From positions 3,906,001 through 3,970,000 of the forward strand of contig NZ_CP102850.1 in NCBI RefSeq assembly GCF_024734075.1: DNA of 64,000 nt. The letters run 5' to 3'. This DNA comes from Gordonia mangrovi (GTDB lineage: Bacteria > Actinomycetota > Actinomycetes > Mycobacteriales > Mycobacteriaceae). The notes under the pieces are model-generated. The model searched no databases. It saw only the letters and a list, made by a program, of their open reading frames with translations, and was not told the origin of the DNA. Each line of letters opens with the position of its first letter. Within the stretch, counting starts at the first letter, position 1. A program made the position numbers and the translations under genes. Below, one piece after another: positions 732 through 41,944 of this stretch.

Positions 732-1502
732 CTACTGGGCGATCACCTTGTTGACGGCCCGGTTGAGGAAGTTGGGAATGAACTTCGACGCGTTGCCCAG
801 GACCAGCGTCTGGGTGCCGACCGAGTAGCTGGTGCGGTGCAACAGTTTGTCTTGGCGGGTGGGATGCACGGATTCCCACACCTTGTCGGCGACCTGTTCG
901 GGCGTGATCCGGACGCCGAGGGTCTTGGTCGACTTAGCCTCGTTCATGGCCAGGGCCGTCTTTGCCCAGAGCGGCCAGATGCCCACGACGCGAATGTCGT
1001 CGTTCTCCCATTCCAGCTCGAGTGCTTCGGTCAGGCCGGCGACGAAGAACTTGGTCGCGCTATAGGTCGCGATACCGGGCTGGCCGTAGATGGCCGAGGC
1101 GGAGGCGATGTTCACCAGGTGCGCCCCCGGCGTCTTCTTCAGGTACGGATAGGCGGCCTGCGCGCCCAACGCGACACCGAGCGCGTCGATGTCGATCTGG
1201 CGCCGGACGGCGTCGGGGGAGATCTCGTGCAGCGGGCCCTCGACCAGGATGCCGGCGTTGTTGTCGAGGACGTCCAGGGTGCCCCCGGTGTGGCTGGTGA
1301 ACTCGGCCAGTGCGTTCTCCCACTGCTGCGGATCACGGACGTCGAGTGTCCCGGTGATGAACCCGGGATGGTTGGCCTTCACCTTCGCGAGCGCCTCGGC
1401 GTCCACGTCGAACACGCCAACCGTCCATCCTTCGCGCCCGAAGCGTTCCGCGGTCGCCAGTCCGATGCCTGCGGCGCCGCCCGTGATGAAGATCGATGAC
1501 AT
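732..1502 (-). CDS. SDR-family NAD(P)-dependent oxidoreductase
   Basis: This 256-residue protein is a classical short-chain dehydrogenase/reductase. It has the dinucleotide-binding motif TGGAAGIG near residues 7-14, the NNAG motif near 80, and a catalytic Ser...Tyr-x3-Lys set in SASAIYGQPGIATYSATK (about 133-150). Length is normal for a soluble cytoplasmic SDR that oxidises or reduces an alcohol or ketone. The substrate is unknown. It is divergent from the diiron oxygenase/FprB pair and shares its 181-bp regulatory region, so it may act in the same oxidative pathway; that is inference. The C-terminus has an extended basic end (NFLNRAVNKVIAQ). Confidence 0.85.
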   Translation of the reverse strand: MSSIFITGGAAGIGLATAERFGREGWTVGVFDVDAEALAKVKANHPGFITGTLDVRDPQQWENALAEFTSHTGGTLDVLDNNAGILVEGPLHEISPDAVRRQIDIDALGVALGAQAAYPYLKKTPGAHLVNIASASAIYGQPGIATYSATKFFVAGLTEALELEWENDDIRVVGIWPLWAKTALAMNEAKSTKTLGVRITPEQVADKVWESVHPTRQDKLLHRTSYSVGTQTLVLGNASKFIPNFLNRAVNKVIAQ

Positions 1503-1604: not shown

Positions 1605-1640
1605 TGACAACACGCATTGTCATAACAGTGCTCATTGTCA
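1605..1640. promoter_or_regulatory. Two abutting 18-bp dyads, candidate repressor operators
   Basis: TGACAA-N6-TTGTCA lies at 1605-1622 as a perfect dyad. Immediately after it an imperfect copy, TAACAG-N6-TTGTCA, fills 1623-1640. A third short dyad, GAACA-GT-TGTTC, lies at 1646-1657. They sit between the divergent SDR gene and the diiron oxygenase gene, close upstream of the latter's GGAGG ribosome site. A TetR- or GntR-type repressor is the obvious candidate binder, but no regulator gene lies next to the site. Confidence 0.55.
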
Positions 1641-1683
1641 TGAAAGAACAGTTGTTCACCAACTGCCCGGAGGTCGAGACCAG

Positions 1684-2643
1684 ATGACTGCAGCGATGGA
1701 CCGCACCCGCGACGACACGATCCGCGGGGGTGTCGCCGAGACCGACAACGTGGTCAGCATGCGTGACGAGGGGACCGACGAGGTCTCCGAACGTCTCCTG
1801 GCCTCGGCGGCCCGGCTGTCGCGCAACGCGATGACCGAGATCGACTGGTCTGCACCGATGGACCCGTCGAAGTACGGCTGCAGCCCGGAATGGTCATCGC
1901 TCTACGGCACCGACTACTGGGATGAGCTCACCGAGGAACAGCGCATATCCGTGACGCGCCATGAGTTCGCCTCGATCATGAACATCGGCATCTGGTTCGA
2001 GATGATCCTGCAGGAGATGGTGATCCGCGATCAGTATCTCGGCGAGTATCACAGTGCCGAGTTCCAGTTCGCGCTGACGGAGATCGCCGACGAGTGCCGG
2101 CATTCGATCATGTTCGCCAAGGCGTCGGAGAAGATGGTCGGCACCTCCTACAAGCCGACCAAGAAGGTCGGCCGACTCGGCAAACTGTTCAAGCGCACCG
2201 CAAAGAACGAGGTCGCCTACGCCGGCATTCTGGTCGCCGAGGAGGTGCTCGACGTCTTCCAGCGTGGCTGCATGCGCGACGATCGGGTGCTGCCGTTCAT
2301 CCGGACGGTCAACGAGATCCATGTCCTCGAGGAATCGCGCCACATGCGCTTCGCCCGCGAGGAGGTGCGCGAGTCGATGGACGGGGTCGGCTGGGCGCGT
2401 CGCCAGTTCAGCGCCCTTTACGTGGCGTTGGGTGCCTACTTCATCGTCACCAGCCTGGTGCAGAAGACGGCCTTCGCCGACGCCGGGCTCGATGCCGACC
2501 GCGCCGTGGCCGAGATGCGATCGAACTCGCACTTTCAGTCGATGATCCGCAGCAGCTGTGCACACCTCATGGACTTCCTCGACGAGGTCGGGCTGCTCAC
2601 CCGGCCGGCCATGTACTACTACCGGAAAGCGAACATGCTCTGA
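1684..2643 (+). CDS. AurF-like diiron oxygenase (cassette 1)
   Basis: This 319-residue protein resembles the AurF / p-aminobenzoate N-oxygenase family of non-haem diiron enzymes, which activate O2 to oxidise amines or other small substrates. Candidate iron ligands appear in order: E in NIGIWFEMILQEM, an ExxxxH pair in EIADECRHSIMF, E in ILVAEEVLDVF, and ExH / ESRH in VNEIHVLEESRHMRF. The start at 1684 is chosen because GGAGG lies about 12 bases upstream; the frame is open further upstream without a better start. The stop overlaps the next gene's ATG by one base (TGATG), so a translationally coupled ferredoxin reductase is the probable electron donor. Substrate unknown. Confidence 0.8.
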   Translation: MTAAMDRTRDDTIRGGVAETDNVVSMRDEGTDEVSERLLASAARLSRNAMTEIDWSAPMDPSKYGCSPEWSSLYGTDYWDELTEEQRISVTRHEFASIMNIGIWFEMILQEMVIRDQYLGEYHSAEFQFALTEIADECRHSIMFAKASEKMVGTSYKPTKKVGRLGKLFKRTAKNEVAYAGILVAEEVLDVFQRGCMRDDRVLPFIRTVNEIHVLEESRHMRFAREEVRESMDGVGWARRQFSALYVALGAYFIVTSLVQKTAFADAGLDADRAVAEMRSNSHFQSMIRSSCAHLMDFLDEVGLLTRPAMYYYRKANML

Positions 2644-4217
2644 TGTTCGTCATCACCCAGTCCTGCTGCAGCGACGCAGCCTGTGTGTCGGTCTGCCCGG
2701 TCAACTGCATCCATCCGACGCCGGAGGAACGCGGCTTCGGCAGTTCCGACATCCTGCACATCGACCCCGAGGCCTGCATCGATTGCGGGGCCTGCGCAGA
2801 CGCCTGCCCGGTGGACGCGATCTACCCGGCCGACAAACTCGGCACCCGCGACAAGGTCTTCATCGACATTAACGCCGACTACTACAAGAACAACCCGGAC
2901 GTGACCTCCGGGTGGTCGTCGGTCACCTATCCGGACATCCCGAAACTCCCTGCCGGCCTTCGCGTTGCGCTGGTCGGCACCGGACCGTCGGGTGGCTATG
3001 CGCTGCGGACGATCCTGGATCGCACCGAGGCGTTGGTGACCGTCATCGACAAGCTCCCGACTCCGGGCGGGCTCGTGCGTGCGGGCGTCGCTCCAGACCA
3101 TCCCGGCACGAAGGGAGTTCTGCGCGGTTTCGACCTGCTCTACCGTGATCCGCGTGTGACCATGGCGACCAACGTCGAGGTCGGTACCGGTCCGGGTCAG
3201 ATCACGCCCGACGAACTGGCCGAGCATTTCGATGCGGTGTTCTATGCGGTCGGTGCCAATGAGTCACGTCGCCTCGGGATCCCCGGGGAATCGCTGCCGG
3301 GCTCGACGTCCGCGACCGAGTTGGTCGCCTGGTACAACGCGGTGCCCGGCATCGAGGCGCCACCGATCCCGCGCGACGGGACCGGTCGCGCGGTGGTGGT
3401 GGGCACCGGCAACGTTGCCCTCGACGTTGCGCGCATCCTGGTGTCGCCGCCCGAGATGCTGGCCACCACCGATATCGCCGATCGCGCACTACGCATCCTG
3501 GAGCAGCAGAACATCCACGAGGTGGCGGTGCTCGGCCGCCGTGATCAGGCCCACGCGGCATACACATCCGCCGAATACCGGGCGTTGTCGACCATCCCGG
3601 GTGTCGAGGTGGTGGTCCACGACGATCCCGCCGCCGCGCTGCCCGACTTCGATTCGTCGGCAGATCCGAACAATCGCCGCATCATCTTCCTGTTCCACAG
3701 TGCTCCCGAAGAGATTCTCGGCCAGTCGCGGGTCGACGGGGTCACGGTGCGGACCGGCGAGCACCGTCACACCATCGCGACCGACCTGATGGTCCGCTCG
3801 ATCGGGTACCGATCCACGCCGATCGACGGCCTGCCGTTCGACGGCGACCGCGGGGTCTTTCCGAATACCGACGGCCGAATGACCACGGTGAGTGGCGATG
3901 TCATCCCCGGTGCCTACGTGTTGGGCTGGGCGAAACGCGGCCCGAGCGGCGGGATCGGCACCAACAAGGTCTGCGCCGAGGCGACCGTCGAGCACTTCAT
4001 CCGAGACGCCGCCGAGGGACGCTTGCCGCGCACCGGTCGGTCGTCGAAGGCGTTCGGTGCGTTGCTGCGGCGCCGCACCCGAAACGTGATCGGTTATCGG
4101 GGCGTGCGCGCGATCGACGCCGGCGAACGGCGCCGCGGTGTCACGCAGGGCCGTCCACGCGTCAAGTACACCGAGGTGTCGGACATGGTCGGTGCCGCCG
4201 GGTGGCGCAAGAGGTAG
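2643..4217 (+). CDS. Ferredoxin/ferredoxin-NADP reductase, FprB type (cassette 1)
   Basis: This 524-residue fusion begins with a bacterial-type ferredoxin domain (cysteines in SCCSDAACVSVCPVNC and CIDCGACADACP, residues about 7-50). It is followed by an adrenodoxin-reductase-like flavoprotein: FAD site VGTGPSGGYA (about 110), NADP site VGTGNVALDVARIL (about 258) and a C-terminal GWAKRGPSGGIGTNK. The architecture matches mycobacterial FprB. It should pass electrons from NADPH through FAD and FeS clusters to a redox partner, most likely the diiron oxygenase whose stop codon it overlaps. A second homologue occurs at 39229-40761. The C-terminal tail after about residue 460 is basic and poorly conserved between the two copies. 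Confidence 0.88.
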   Translation: MFVITQSCCSDAACVSVCPVNCIHPTPEERGFGSSDILHIDPEACIDCGACADACPVDAIYPADKLGTRDKVFIDINADYYKNNPDVTSGWSSVTYPDIPKLPAGLRVALVGTGPSGGYALRTILDRTEALVTVIDKLPTPGGLVRAGVAPDHPGTKGVLRGFDLLYRDPRVTMATNVEVGTGPGQITPDELAEHFDAVFYAVGANESRRLGIPGESLPGSTSATELVAWYNAVPGIEAPPIPRDGTGRAVVVGTGNVALDVARILVSPPEMLATTDIADRALRILEQQNIHEVAVLGRRDQAHAAYTSAEYRALSTIPGVEVVVHDDPAAALPDFDSSADPNNRRIIFLFHSAPEEILGQSRVDGVTVRTGEHRHTIATDLMVRSIGYRSTPIDGLPFDGDRGVFPNTDGRMTTVSGDVIPGAYVLGWAKRGPSGGIGTNKVCAEATVEHFIRDAAEGRLPRTGRSSKAFGALLRRRTRNVIGYRGVRAIDAGERRRGVTQGRPRVKYTEVSDMVGAAGWRKR

Positions 4218-4404: not shown

Positions 4405-4752
4405 ATGTCCAGCACACCGCGATTTCTGCAAGGCGTCTACGCGTTCACCGGCACGGGGCTGACCAAGCCCGCTCCGATCGATCCGTCGCTGACCTTCGTG
4501 GTTCCGGCCGGCATGACGGCGCAGCCCCTCTACTTCCGCGGCGGCAACAGTTCGGGCGAGCTGATCTATGTGACGCTCCTGCGCGACGGACAGCCCATGC
4601 GGATCTTCCCGATGGGCGCGAAGTCCTCGGTCAACGTGCCGCTGCGAGTCGTCGAGGACGTCGATCCCGACACCACGCTCGAACTGGTGCTCGCAGCTCC
4701 GGAGGCCACCACGGGCGAGGTCGTCATCGACTTCGGGATGGTCATCTTCTGA
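4405..4752 (+). CDS. Small conserved protein upstream of nirB, function unknown
   Basis: The 115-residue protein has no signal peptide or membrane segment. It is rich in short beta-prone stretches (LTFVVPAGM, ELIYVTLLRDG, EVVIDFGMVIF) and probably forms a small beta-sandwich. I do not recognise an enzymatic motif. It sits immediately before nirB, with its TGA overlapping nirB's ATG (TGATG), so the two are translationally coupled. Its role is presumably tied to nitrite or nitrate assimilation. About 45 bases upstream, GTAAC-N6-GCAAG (4356-4371) weakly resembles half of an actinobacterial GlnR box; I would not rely on it. Confidence 0.7.
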   Translation: MSSTPRFLQGVYAFTGTGLTKPAPIDPSLTFVVPAGMTAQPLYFRGGNSSGELIYVTLLRDGQPMRIFPMGAKSSVNVPLRVVEDVDPDTTLELVLAAPEATTGEVVIDFGMVIF

Positions 4753-39228: not shown

Positions 39229-40761
39229 TCAGTCGAGCGGTCCCGGCATCCCGGACACCGCCGATCGGGCCGACAGCTTCCCTGACTCGTGGTCGCTCAG
39301 CAGCGAGGCGACGGTCTCGGCGGAGTCGGTTTTGTTCGTGCCGATGAACCCCGAGGGTCCGCGCTTGATCCAACCGGTCACGTACATGCCGGGTCGGAGC
39401 CCACCGTCGTCGAGTATGCGTCCGGCATCATGCGGGATGACGCCGCGGGCGTCGTCGAAGGGCAGACCCGGGACGGCGACTCCGCGGTACCCGATCGATG
39501 TGAGCACCAGCGAGGTGTCGATCGTCTCGGCGGTGCCCATGGGCTCTATCGCGCCGGTGGGGCCGACTCGGGTGTGGTCGGTGACCAGCCCGACGACCCG
39601 GCCGTCGGGACCGAGGCGGATCGCCGACGGGGAACGGTGGAAGGCCAGCCGGATGCGCGGGCCGTCACCGGGGGTGCGTCGGGACGCCTCGCCGAGCAGT
39701 TCCAGCTTCGCTTGTGTGGTGGCATCATCGATGACAAGGTCGGATGCCGAGTCGAGGTCGGCGGGGTCGACGACCACGTTGATCCCGGTGTCGACCAGGC
39801 CCACCAACTCGGGCAGGGTGAATGCGGCGTGCGCGGCGCTGCGGCGTCCGAGCACGATCACCTCGTCGATGGCGGAGCGTCGGAGTGCATTCAGTGCTTG
39901 CCGCGAGATCGAGGTGTCGGCAAGTGATTTGGGGTCTGTGGTGAGGATTCTGGCTACGTCCAGCGCTACATTGCCATTGCCGATGACCACTGCCCGCAGG
40001 CCCGACAGGTCCACGTCGAGGTCGGCGTGGTCGGGGTGGCCGTTGTACCAGCCGACCAGTGCAGTGGCGCTGAGAACACCTGGTGCGTCGGCGTTCTCGA
40101 GGTCGAGCCGTCGGTCGATTTGGGCGCCGCCCGCCCAGATGACCGCTTGATGCCGGCGTCGCAGCGCGTCCAGCGAGACGTCGGCGCCCACGGTGACGTT
40201 CAGGCGGATGTCGCATCGCGGTTCGCGGGCGATGTCGTCGAACAGCCGCATCACCGAGCGGGTGGCGAGGTGGTCGGGGGCGACCCCGAAGCGGGCCAGA
40301 CCGAACGGACGGTCCAGCCGCTCGTAGATGGTGACTGTGGCCTGTGGATGCCGCAGCAGCTCATCGGCGGCGTACATCGCCGACGGCCCGGAGCCCACGA
40401 TCCCCACCGACAACGGTTCATCGACGGCGAGTCGTCGCGGCTTGTCGATCGGCGCCAACGGAAGTCGGCGTCCGGCGTCGACCGGGAACCGGACCGTGCC
40501 CGACGTCGCGGGATCGAAGTGGGCGGCGTTGATGTCGGCGAAGCGGGCCTGATCCTCGGGGAGGCGATGGCCGGGCATGATGGCGCCGACCGGGCATGCG
40601 CTCACGCAGGCGCCGCAGTCGACGCAGGTCGACGGGTCGATGTAGAGCATCTCCGAGGTGCCGAAGTCGGGCTCGGAGGGGGTGGGGTGAATACAGTTGA
40701 CCGGGCATGCGTACACGCACGACGCGTCTCCGCAGCACGCCTGGGTGACGACGTGGGGCAT
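39229..40761 (-). CDS. Ferredoxin/ferredoxin-NADP reductase, FprB type (cassette 2)
   Basis: The 510-residue paralogue of the protein at 2643-4217 has the same order: ferredoxin cysteines in QACCGDASCVYACPVNC and CVDCGACVSACP, an FAD site IVGSGPSAMYAADEL, an NADP site VIGNGNVALDVARIL and the terminal WIKRGPSGFIGTNKTDS. It should deliver NADPH electrons to a partner. The gene just upstream on the same strand (31 bases) encodes a diiron oxygenase, so the functional pairing seen in cassette 1 recurs. Relative to cassette 1, the basic C-terminal extension is absent and the reductase ends soon after the NADP domain. Confidence 0.9.
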   Translation of the reverse strand: MPHVVTQACCGDASCVYACPVNCIHPTPSEPDFGTSEMLYIDPSTCVDCGACVSACPVGAIMPGHRLPEDQARFADINAAHFDPATSGTVRFPVDAGRRLPLAPIDKPRRLAVDEPLSVGIVGSGPSAMYAADELLRHPQATVTIYERLDRPFGLARFGVAPDHLATRSVMRLFDDIAREPRCDIRLNVTVGADVSLDALRRRHQAVIWAGGAQIDRRLDLENADAPGVLSATALVGWYNGHPDHADLDVDLSGLRAVVIGNGNVALDVARILTTDPKSLADTSISRQALNALRRSAIDEVIVLGRRSAAHAAFTLPELVGLVDTGINVVVDPADLDSASDLVIDDATTQAKLELLGEASRRTPGDGPRIRLAFHRSPSAIRLGPDGRVVGLVTDHTRVGPTGAIEPMGTAETIDTSLVLTSIGYRGVAVPGLPFDDARGVIPHDAGRILDDGGLRPGMYVTGWIKRGPSGFIGTNKTDSAETVASLLSDHESGKLSARSAVSGMPGPLD

Positions 40762-40792
40762 AGGCTTCCGTTACGGCTGTGGGTGAATGCGC

Positions 40793-41806
40793 TCAGGCGG
40801 CGGTGTAGGTGGGTTCGCTGCGGAACCGGGACGGGCGGCCGCCGATACCGAGCAACTTCCACAGCAGTCGCGAGACCGGATTCATCAGGCCGCATTGCTC
40901 ACCGAGCATCCGGACATCACCGAACACGTTGCGCAGGAACTTTTTCGACTCCGGTGAACGCCAGAAGATGTCGCGCATCACGTCGTCGGGGATGTCGAAT
41001 CGTTTCTGGAACGATTTCGGCGGTACCACGATGGCGCCGCACAGGATGCGCATGGTGAGCGGAAACATCAGCGACAGCAGGAACCGCTGGATTCGACCCT
41101 TGCGCGGAACGGTCTCGCGCAGCAGGTGATGCGCGAACGAGATGTGGCGGGCCTCCTCGGCCACGTGCAGTTGCATCACCGCGGCCATGGTCGGATGCAG
41201 ATTGGCGCGCGTGCGCAGGAAGTCCTTCTGGATGTGGTCGATCGGCTCCTCGCCGCCGAGTACCCCGAAGAAGAAGACGGTCGGGAAGATCGTCGATGCC
41301 AGTGGCACCAGAGGGGAGATCACTCGGTAGCCGACCTTGGCGCCCGGGACGTCCATGCCGGAGCGGTTCACGAACTCCTGGAACATCAGCGTGTGGTTGC
41401 ACTCCTCCTTGGATTCGTGCGTGGTGTAGCGGAACTCCTTGGCGCCGTTGGGCAGCTTGAAGCTGTACTGCATGAGTCCGCGGATCAGCACCGATTCGAA
41501 CTGCAGGCCGACCTTGGCGACGTTGGCCTGCCGCCACATGCCGATCTCGATCTGCTTGTCGCGGGGGAGTTGCCGATACCAGGGGTGCCGGCCGACCGGG
41601 TCGACCTCGGGCGACAGAATCCACCGGTCGTCGTCGGGCACGATCGCCATTTTCGGGTCGTCCCAGTCGATGTCGAGGTAGGGGTCGAAATTGCGGTGCA
41701 CGGATGCGGCCGACAGGTCGTCGAGGACCTGCGGGTAGTCGTCGGCCGACGTTTCCGGTCGCTCGGGAACATACGGCGCACCGAGGCGTTCGATGGCGTT
41801 GGTCAT
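40793..41806 (-). CDS. AurF-like diiron oxygenase (cassette 2)
   Basis: From ATG 41806 the product is 337 residues. Candidate iron ligands lie in FESVLIRGLMQY, THESKEECNHTLMFQEF (ExxxH), GEEPIDHIQKD and QLHVAEEARHISFAHH, the pattern of the AurF/ferritin-like superfamily. It differs clearly from the 1684-2643 protein outside those motifs, so this is not a recent duplication. It is followed by its FprB-type reductase. The C-terminus (KLLGIGGRPSRFR) is basic. Substrate unknown; amine N-oxidation or hydroxylation is possible. Confidence 0.82.
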   Translation of the reverse strand: MTNAIERLGAPYVPERPETSADDYPQVLDDLSAASVHRNFDPYLDIDWDDPKMAIVPDDDRWILSPEVDPVGRHPWYRQLPRDKQIEIGMWRQANVAKVGLQFESVLIRGLMQYSFKLPNGAKEFRYTTHESKEECNHTLMFQEFVNRSGMDVPGAKVGYRVISPLVPLASTIFPTVFFFGVLGGEEPIDHIQKDFLRTRANLHPTMAAVMQLHVAEEARHISFAHHLLRETVPRKGRIQRFLLSLMFPLTMRILCGAIVVPPKSFQKRFDIPDDVMRDIFWRSPESKKFLRNVFGDVRMLGEQCGLMNPVSRLLWKLLGIGGRPSRFRSEPTYTAA

Positions 41807-41931
41807 GATGGTGCGGGTCCTTCTGCGCTCAGAGTCCTGCTGTCCAGGTCGATTGACCGAGGGGCGTGCCGACGGATGGTCGATGGATGTCGAAAGTAGT
41901 TCGGTGGCCACCTATATGTCAACAGTCAATG

Positions 41932-41944
41932 TCACAATTTGTGA
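41932..41944. promoter_or_regulatory. Near-palindrome in the cassette 2 promoter region
   Basis: TCACAATTTGTGA is a dyad broken only at its centre. On the minus strand it lies upstream of TTGACATATAG, a good -10 region (TATAGG) for the diiron gene. A repressor or activator site is plausible. Confidence 0.45.

Follow-up and report, generated by a model that had tools for sequence, protein, structure and literature searches.

AurF-type diiron oxygenases paired with FprB-type ferredoxin-reductase fusions in Gordonia mangrovi and other actinobacteria

The window analysed here, a stretch of 64,000 nucleotides of the Gordonia mangrovi genome, contains two cassettes that each combine a gene for an AurF-type diiron oxygenase with a gene for a ferredoxin/FAD-NADPH reductase fusion (Table 1). 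Cassette 1 is best explained as a two-gene, self-contained oxygenase system, a reading that we hold as a whole with good confidence. In the proposed chain, the FAD domain of the reductase would accept hydride from NADPH, electrons would move within the same polypeptide from FAD to the N-terminal 7Fe-like ferredoxin domain, and this domain would reduce the diiron site of the co-translated oxygenase. The reduced oxygenase would then activate O2 and oxidise a small substrate, most likely at nitrogen (an amine, a hydroxylamine or similar). Cassette 2 would be its diverged equivalent, having acquired a partner of this kind independently, and a common regulator would probably control both. The electron transfer, the O2 chemistry, the N-oxidation and the regulator are our inferences from what the cassettes show directly: their gene structure and domains, the residues for cofactors and metal ligands, the fold, the linkage, the history in two clades and the shared palindrome upstream. 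The first-pass annotation had proposed such a dedicated electron chain feeding the oxygenase, and at the level of genomics the linkage, the two-clade history and the kinship of the reductases support it.

The oxygenase-reductase module is conserved from soil actinobacteria to mycobacteria. The linkage suggests a likely partner of FprB, a redox protein of the tuberculosis bacterium, and the genomic evidence offers one testable answer to two questions, which partners FprB has and which donors AurF-type enzymes use in the cell. Enzymologists, who now use chemical mediators, would benefit from a matched native donor.

Table 1. Coordinates of the features of both cassettes in the window
Feature	Position	Strand	Details
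Short-chain dehydrogenase (SDR), divergent to cassette 1	732..1502	-	PF00106, E 1.1e-41
Operator-like perfect palindrome TGACAA-N6-TTGTCA, upstream of cassette 1	1605..1622		only exact copy in genome
Weaker second palindrome TAACAG-N6-TTGTCA	1623..1640		2 mismatches
GGAGG ribosome-binding-like site of cassette 1 oxygenase	1669..1673	+	from sequence; similar in upstream alignment of relatives
Cassette 1 AurF-type ferritin-like diiron oxygenase	1684..2643	+	319 aa, PF11583
Cassette 1 ferredoxin/FAD-NADPH reductase fusion, FprB architecture	2643..4217	+	524 aa, Fer4 + Pyr_redox_2
Cassette 2 ferredoxin/FAD-NADPH reductase fusion, fprB/Rv0886-type clade	39229..40761	-	510 aa
Cassette 2 AurF-type diiron oxygenase, Rv0885-type clade	40793..41806	-	337 aa, PF11583 355 bits, tree
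Operator-like palindrome upstream of cassette 2	41917..41934		TGACATTGACTGTTGACA on - strand; motif match

Results and discussion

Gene structure of the cassettes

In the Pfam profile search the cassette 1 oxygenase gave a full-length match to PF11583 (E 8.8e-102; 340.5 bits against a curated cut-off of 29.6). The overlap between its stop and the start of the reductase, reported by the first-pass annotation, is correctly placed and amounts to a single base: the TGA at 2641-2643 and the ATG at 2643-2645 form TGATG. The reductase has at its N-terminus a ferredoxin domain in which nine cysteines are invariant, and its C-terminal 410 residues resemble adrenodoxin reductase and FprA of M. tuberculosis (E 1.9e-81 for FprA), with the motifs GTGPSG, GTGNVALDVAR and RR. 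An N-terminal ferredoxin joined to an adrenodoxin-reductase-type FAD/NADPH domain is the arrangement of the FprB-type Fd-FNR fusions, whereas FprA has no fused ferredoxin. The divergent SDR gene adjoins cassette 1 in most Gordonia and Williamsia loci, and is conserved only there; the cassettes of nearly all other genera lack it as a neighbour. No beta or gamma subunits and no effector protein of a bacterial multicomponent monooxygenase occur among the genes conserved around the cassettes, which places the cassettes outside that group. Between cassette 1 and a nitrite-reductase-like gene lies a 115-aa protein without a Pfam match (4405-4752), kept in about ten Gordonia loci.

The second, clearly diverged pair that had been noted at 39229-41806 is also confirmed. 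Its two genes are separated by a 31-bp gap, without overlap, and both fall in clades separate from those of cassette 1. The single-contig genome of 5.39 Mb has three PF11583 genes and five ferredoxin-reductase fusions, of which two of each are paired, both pairs being in the window. The third oxygenase (L023) is unpaired and located near a ferritin-like gene. The three unpaired fusions (L020, L021 and L022) have no oxygenase neighbour, and two of them lie beside lipid or steroid-type genes; their surroundings, named from sequence by eye, are a glycosyltransferase gene, thiolase/enoyl-CoA hydratase genes and a thiolase/acyl-CoA dehydrogenase cluster.

Linkage of oxygenase and reductase

The co-occurrence of PF11583 proteins with FprB-type fusions was surveyed in 150 genomes of the host's order. 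PF11583 is present in 95 of them and the fusion in at least 58, the fusion counts being lower bounds because no more than 14 first-look candidates were scored in each genome; one pair (L146), absent from this count, was found at its fetched oxygenase locus. All 58 fusion-bearing genomes also have PF11583 (hypergeometric 1.6e-16, with relatedness ignored). The linkage is physical as well, since at least 63 of 78 fusions have a PF11583 gene upstream within a few hundred bases, in every case on the same strand and with the oxygenase first. About 15 fusions in this survey are unpaired, including the three in the host genome. Outside the order, a phylum-wide draw found five fusions, all paired.

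Regarding cassette 1 itself, 80 named loci of its oxygenase were compared, from Gordonia, Williamsia, Nocardioides, Amycolatopsis, Actinomycetospora, Streptomyces and others. The reductase follows directly downstream in 69 of them, and the exact 1-base overlap is kept in 27, with the tight overlap in Gordonia and Williamsia; these counts argue that neither the pairing nor the overlap is due to chance. The 11 unpaired loci are extra copies: ten are in genomes that contribute a paired copy to the 80 loci as well, and L198, the eleventh, is assigned to the strain of genome G071, which holds the pair L054. The unpaired extra oxygenase copy of Gordonia sp. ABSL49_1 (L130, L198) has one metal-ligand histidine replaced by leucine. 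Intact pairs are also found on plasmids of Rhodococcus qingshengii and of two Streptomyces strains, while a Pseudonocardia plasmid and a Tsukamurella plasmid have the oxygenase with no annotated fusion adjoining.

The dedicated chain would be in doubt if the two families usually stood apart. For the reductases this is not what was found, either in the order, in the phylum-wide draw or in the named loci. The oxygenase side is broader, and many PF11583 genes, including several whole clades, have no adjoining fusion. In the genus coded g2, which from its neighbour genes we take to be Mycobacterium, the gene after an unpaired oxygenase often encodes a DUF4873 domain (L124:3876-5048).

The unpaired fusions show that this type of reductase can serve elsewhere. 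They also favour, together with papers that treat FprB as a partner of cytochromes P450 (PMC9577196, PMC12090724), the view that fusions of the FprB type donate electrons generally, to acceptors such as P450s, and that adjacency to the oxygenase is a regulatory convenience. We regard this view as very improbable, because one oxygenase family precedes most of the fusions across two distant clades and no P450 is widely conserved as a neighbour of the pairs. The published data on ferredoxins point the same way: the 7Fe ferredoxin FdxA reduced none of the M. tuberculosis P450s tested (PMC6469627), and the efficient ferredoxin partners of CYP125A77 in M. neoaurum are of the 3Fe-4S type (PMC13254585). 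A counterpoint to a dedicated donor is that AurF-family enzymes also work in vitro with PMS/NADPH or FAD/NADH (PMC13061610, PMC9478400).

Active site and likely reaction

The cassette 1 oxygenase has all seven metal ligands of the family, six plus a seventh histidine (E106, E137, H140, E186, H213, E217 and H220), and the set is kept in 124 of 124 paired oxygenases, 94 of them of the cassette 1 group (A1) and 30 of the cassette 2 group (A2). Likewise, the FAD motif, the GxGNVAxD-type NADP motif and the NADPH-type RR pair are kept in 66 of 66 reductases. No solved structure matched the oxygenase when its sequence was searched, alone or as a profile; matches came from fold comparison alone. The predicted model (mean pLDDT 86) is closest to CmlI (Z 21.7) and AurF (Z 20.2), above the R2lox and ribonucleotide-reductase R2 entries (Z of about 17-18).

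Within the superfamily the seventh histidine is characteristic of N-oxygenases (PMC13061610), and N-oxidation of a small substrate is more likely than C-oxidation. The other reading, in which the enzyme would be a desaturase or C-H hydroxylase for a lipid or aromatic compound and the SDR would take the next step, seems unlikely to us. The SDR divergent to cassette 1 and conserved in Gordonia and Williamsia could hint at C-hydroxylation, and a similar palindrome precedes an acyl-CoA-ligase-like gene. Nevertheless, the ligand set is that of the N-oxygenases (PMC13061610), and the cassettes of nearly all other genera have no SDR beside them.

Two clades of pairs

In the oxygenase tree the paired genes form two groups. 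A1 includes cassette 1 with members from Gordonia and several other families, and is nested among unpaired clades; A2 includes cassette 2 with Gordonia, genus g2 (all 17 genomes whose A2 locus was fetched) and others, and has some unpaired members. The fusion tree matches these groups one to one, with all 25 F1 fusions accompanying A1 and all 30 F2 fusions accompanying A2, and the unpaired fusions branch near F2. Mirror-tree correlations are 0.90 for A1/F1 and 0.95 for A2/F2. An unpaired Mycobacterium oxygenase that had been considered as the orthologue of cassette 1 was ruled out, as it belongs to a third clade of the tree.

A single clade of all paired oxygenases is rejected by the AU test (p 2e-18). 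The A1 and A2 oxygenases are separated by a distance of about 2.5, against about 0.9 for the F1 and F2 reductases, even though within-clade rates are alike for both genes. Since the reductase clades are so much closer than the oxygenase clades, the pairing was probably gained twice, two distant oxygenase clades each recruiting closely related reductases. This strengthens the earlier suggestion that the pairing itself is selected, because the paired oxygenases form two clades and not one, and yet have closely related reductases. A duplication that gave both cassettes from a single ancestor, with the unpaired oxygenases as later losses, would account for the equal gene order and architecture of the two cassettes and for the unpaired genes in the cassette 2 clade; given the unequal distances and the AU test we consider it improbable. 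Gene conversion between reductases may be an alternative source of the closeness of F1 and F2.

The oxygenase and reductase trees have odd cross-family placements in common (L063; L089, L091 and L103). Together with the intact pairs on plasmids, these shared placements suggest that the pair is transferred as a unit.

Relation to Rv0885-fprB and to other systems

In the g2 genomes the A2 pairs adjoin three genes named by eye: a SerC-like one, which is read from the opposite strand, one of VOC type and one resembling citrate synthase. We take the gene order of H37Rv to be Rv0884c (serC), Rv0885, Rv0886 (fprB), Rv0887c and Rv0889c (citA). The conserved neighbourhood fits this order, so that cassette 2 appears to be of the Rv0885-fprB type, which it also resembles in architecture and in sharing a clade with the g2 pairs. 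Cassette 1 differs, being a separate lineage in both genes: its reductase falls in F1, apart from the g2 fusions and cassette 2 in F2, and is thus not the orthologue of FprB (Rv0886). The redox partners of FprB have been stated to be unknown (PMC9868604), and none of the papers searched connects Rv0885 with FprB as its redox partner. We lean, by a little, towards the broader proposal that FprB-type fusions are dedicated donors of AurF-type oxygenases throughout the actinobacteria, FprB-Rv0885 included, with two independent recruitments and one Gordonia regulator for all copies.

The arylamine N-oxygenases AurF and CmlI resemble the cassette 1 oxygenase in the PF11583 domain, in all seven ligands and in the predicted fold (Z 20-22), at about 16% identity in the structural alignment. 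Cassette 1 differs from them in having a dedicated reductase in its operon. It differs likewise from the related Dob3 cluster, which encodes no redox partner; there the partner is assumed to come from another part of the genome (PMC13061610). Among AurF-family enzymes with a linked reductase, the closest earlier case is DnfA-DnfB of Alcaligenes (Dirammox), where, as here, an AurF-family diiron oxygenase and a ferredoxin-reductase-like protein share one operon (PMC9478400). The architecture is another one: DnfB has FNR-like and 2Fe-2S domains, whereas cassette 1 has an adrenodoxin-reductase-type flavoprotein fused behind a 7Fe-like ferredoxin. DnfA needed no DnfB in vitro, the linked reductase being dispensable (PMC9478400). 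Cassette 1 is thus known in its parts, the AurF-type oxygenase and the FprB-type fusion; what is new is that the two are constantly paired, that this pairing probably arose twice and that an upstream site is shared.

Upstream palindrome

In the host genome both cassettes and the third, unpaired oxygenase are preceded by the same rare palindrome. It occurs within two mismatches upstream of 38 of 38 paired Gordonia and Williamsia loci, and in none of 196 control windows within three. In four of four Gordonia the same motif also precedes cassette 2. In two of three it precedes the unpaired third oxygenase too, and the remaining one has a site with three mismatches there. A relaxed form, TGACAW-N6-TTGWCA, chosen after both promoters had been seen, is found at only three places in the genome, before the two cassettes and before a PEPCK-like gene. 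The shared palindrome makes it likely that a common regulator controls both cassettes.

A one-mismatch copy (L263:1501-1518) stands directly before a MarR-family gene (1538-2011), whose product is a candidate for this regulator and is given here as a lead. In front of the MarR orthologues of related Gordonia the motif is similar but degenerate, and sometimes absent. Another one-mismatch copy (L261:1501-1518) lies about 36 bp upstream of the acyl-CoA-ligase-like gene.
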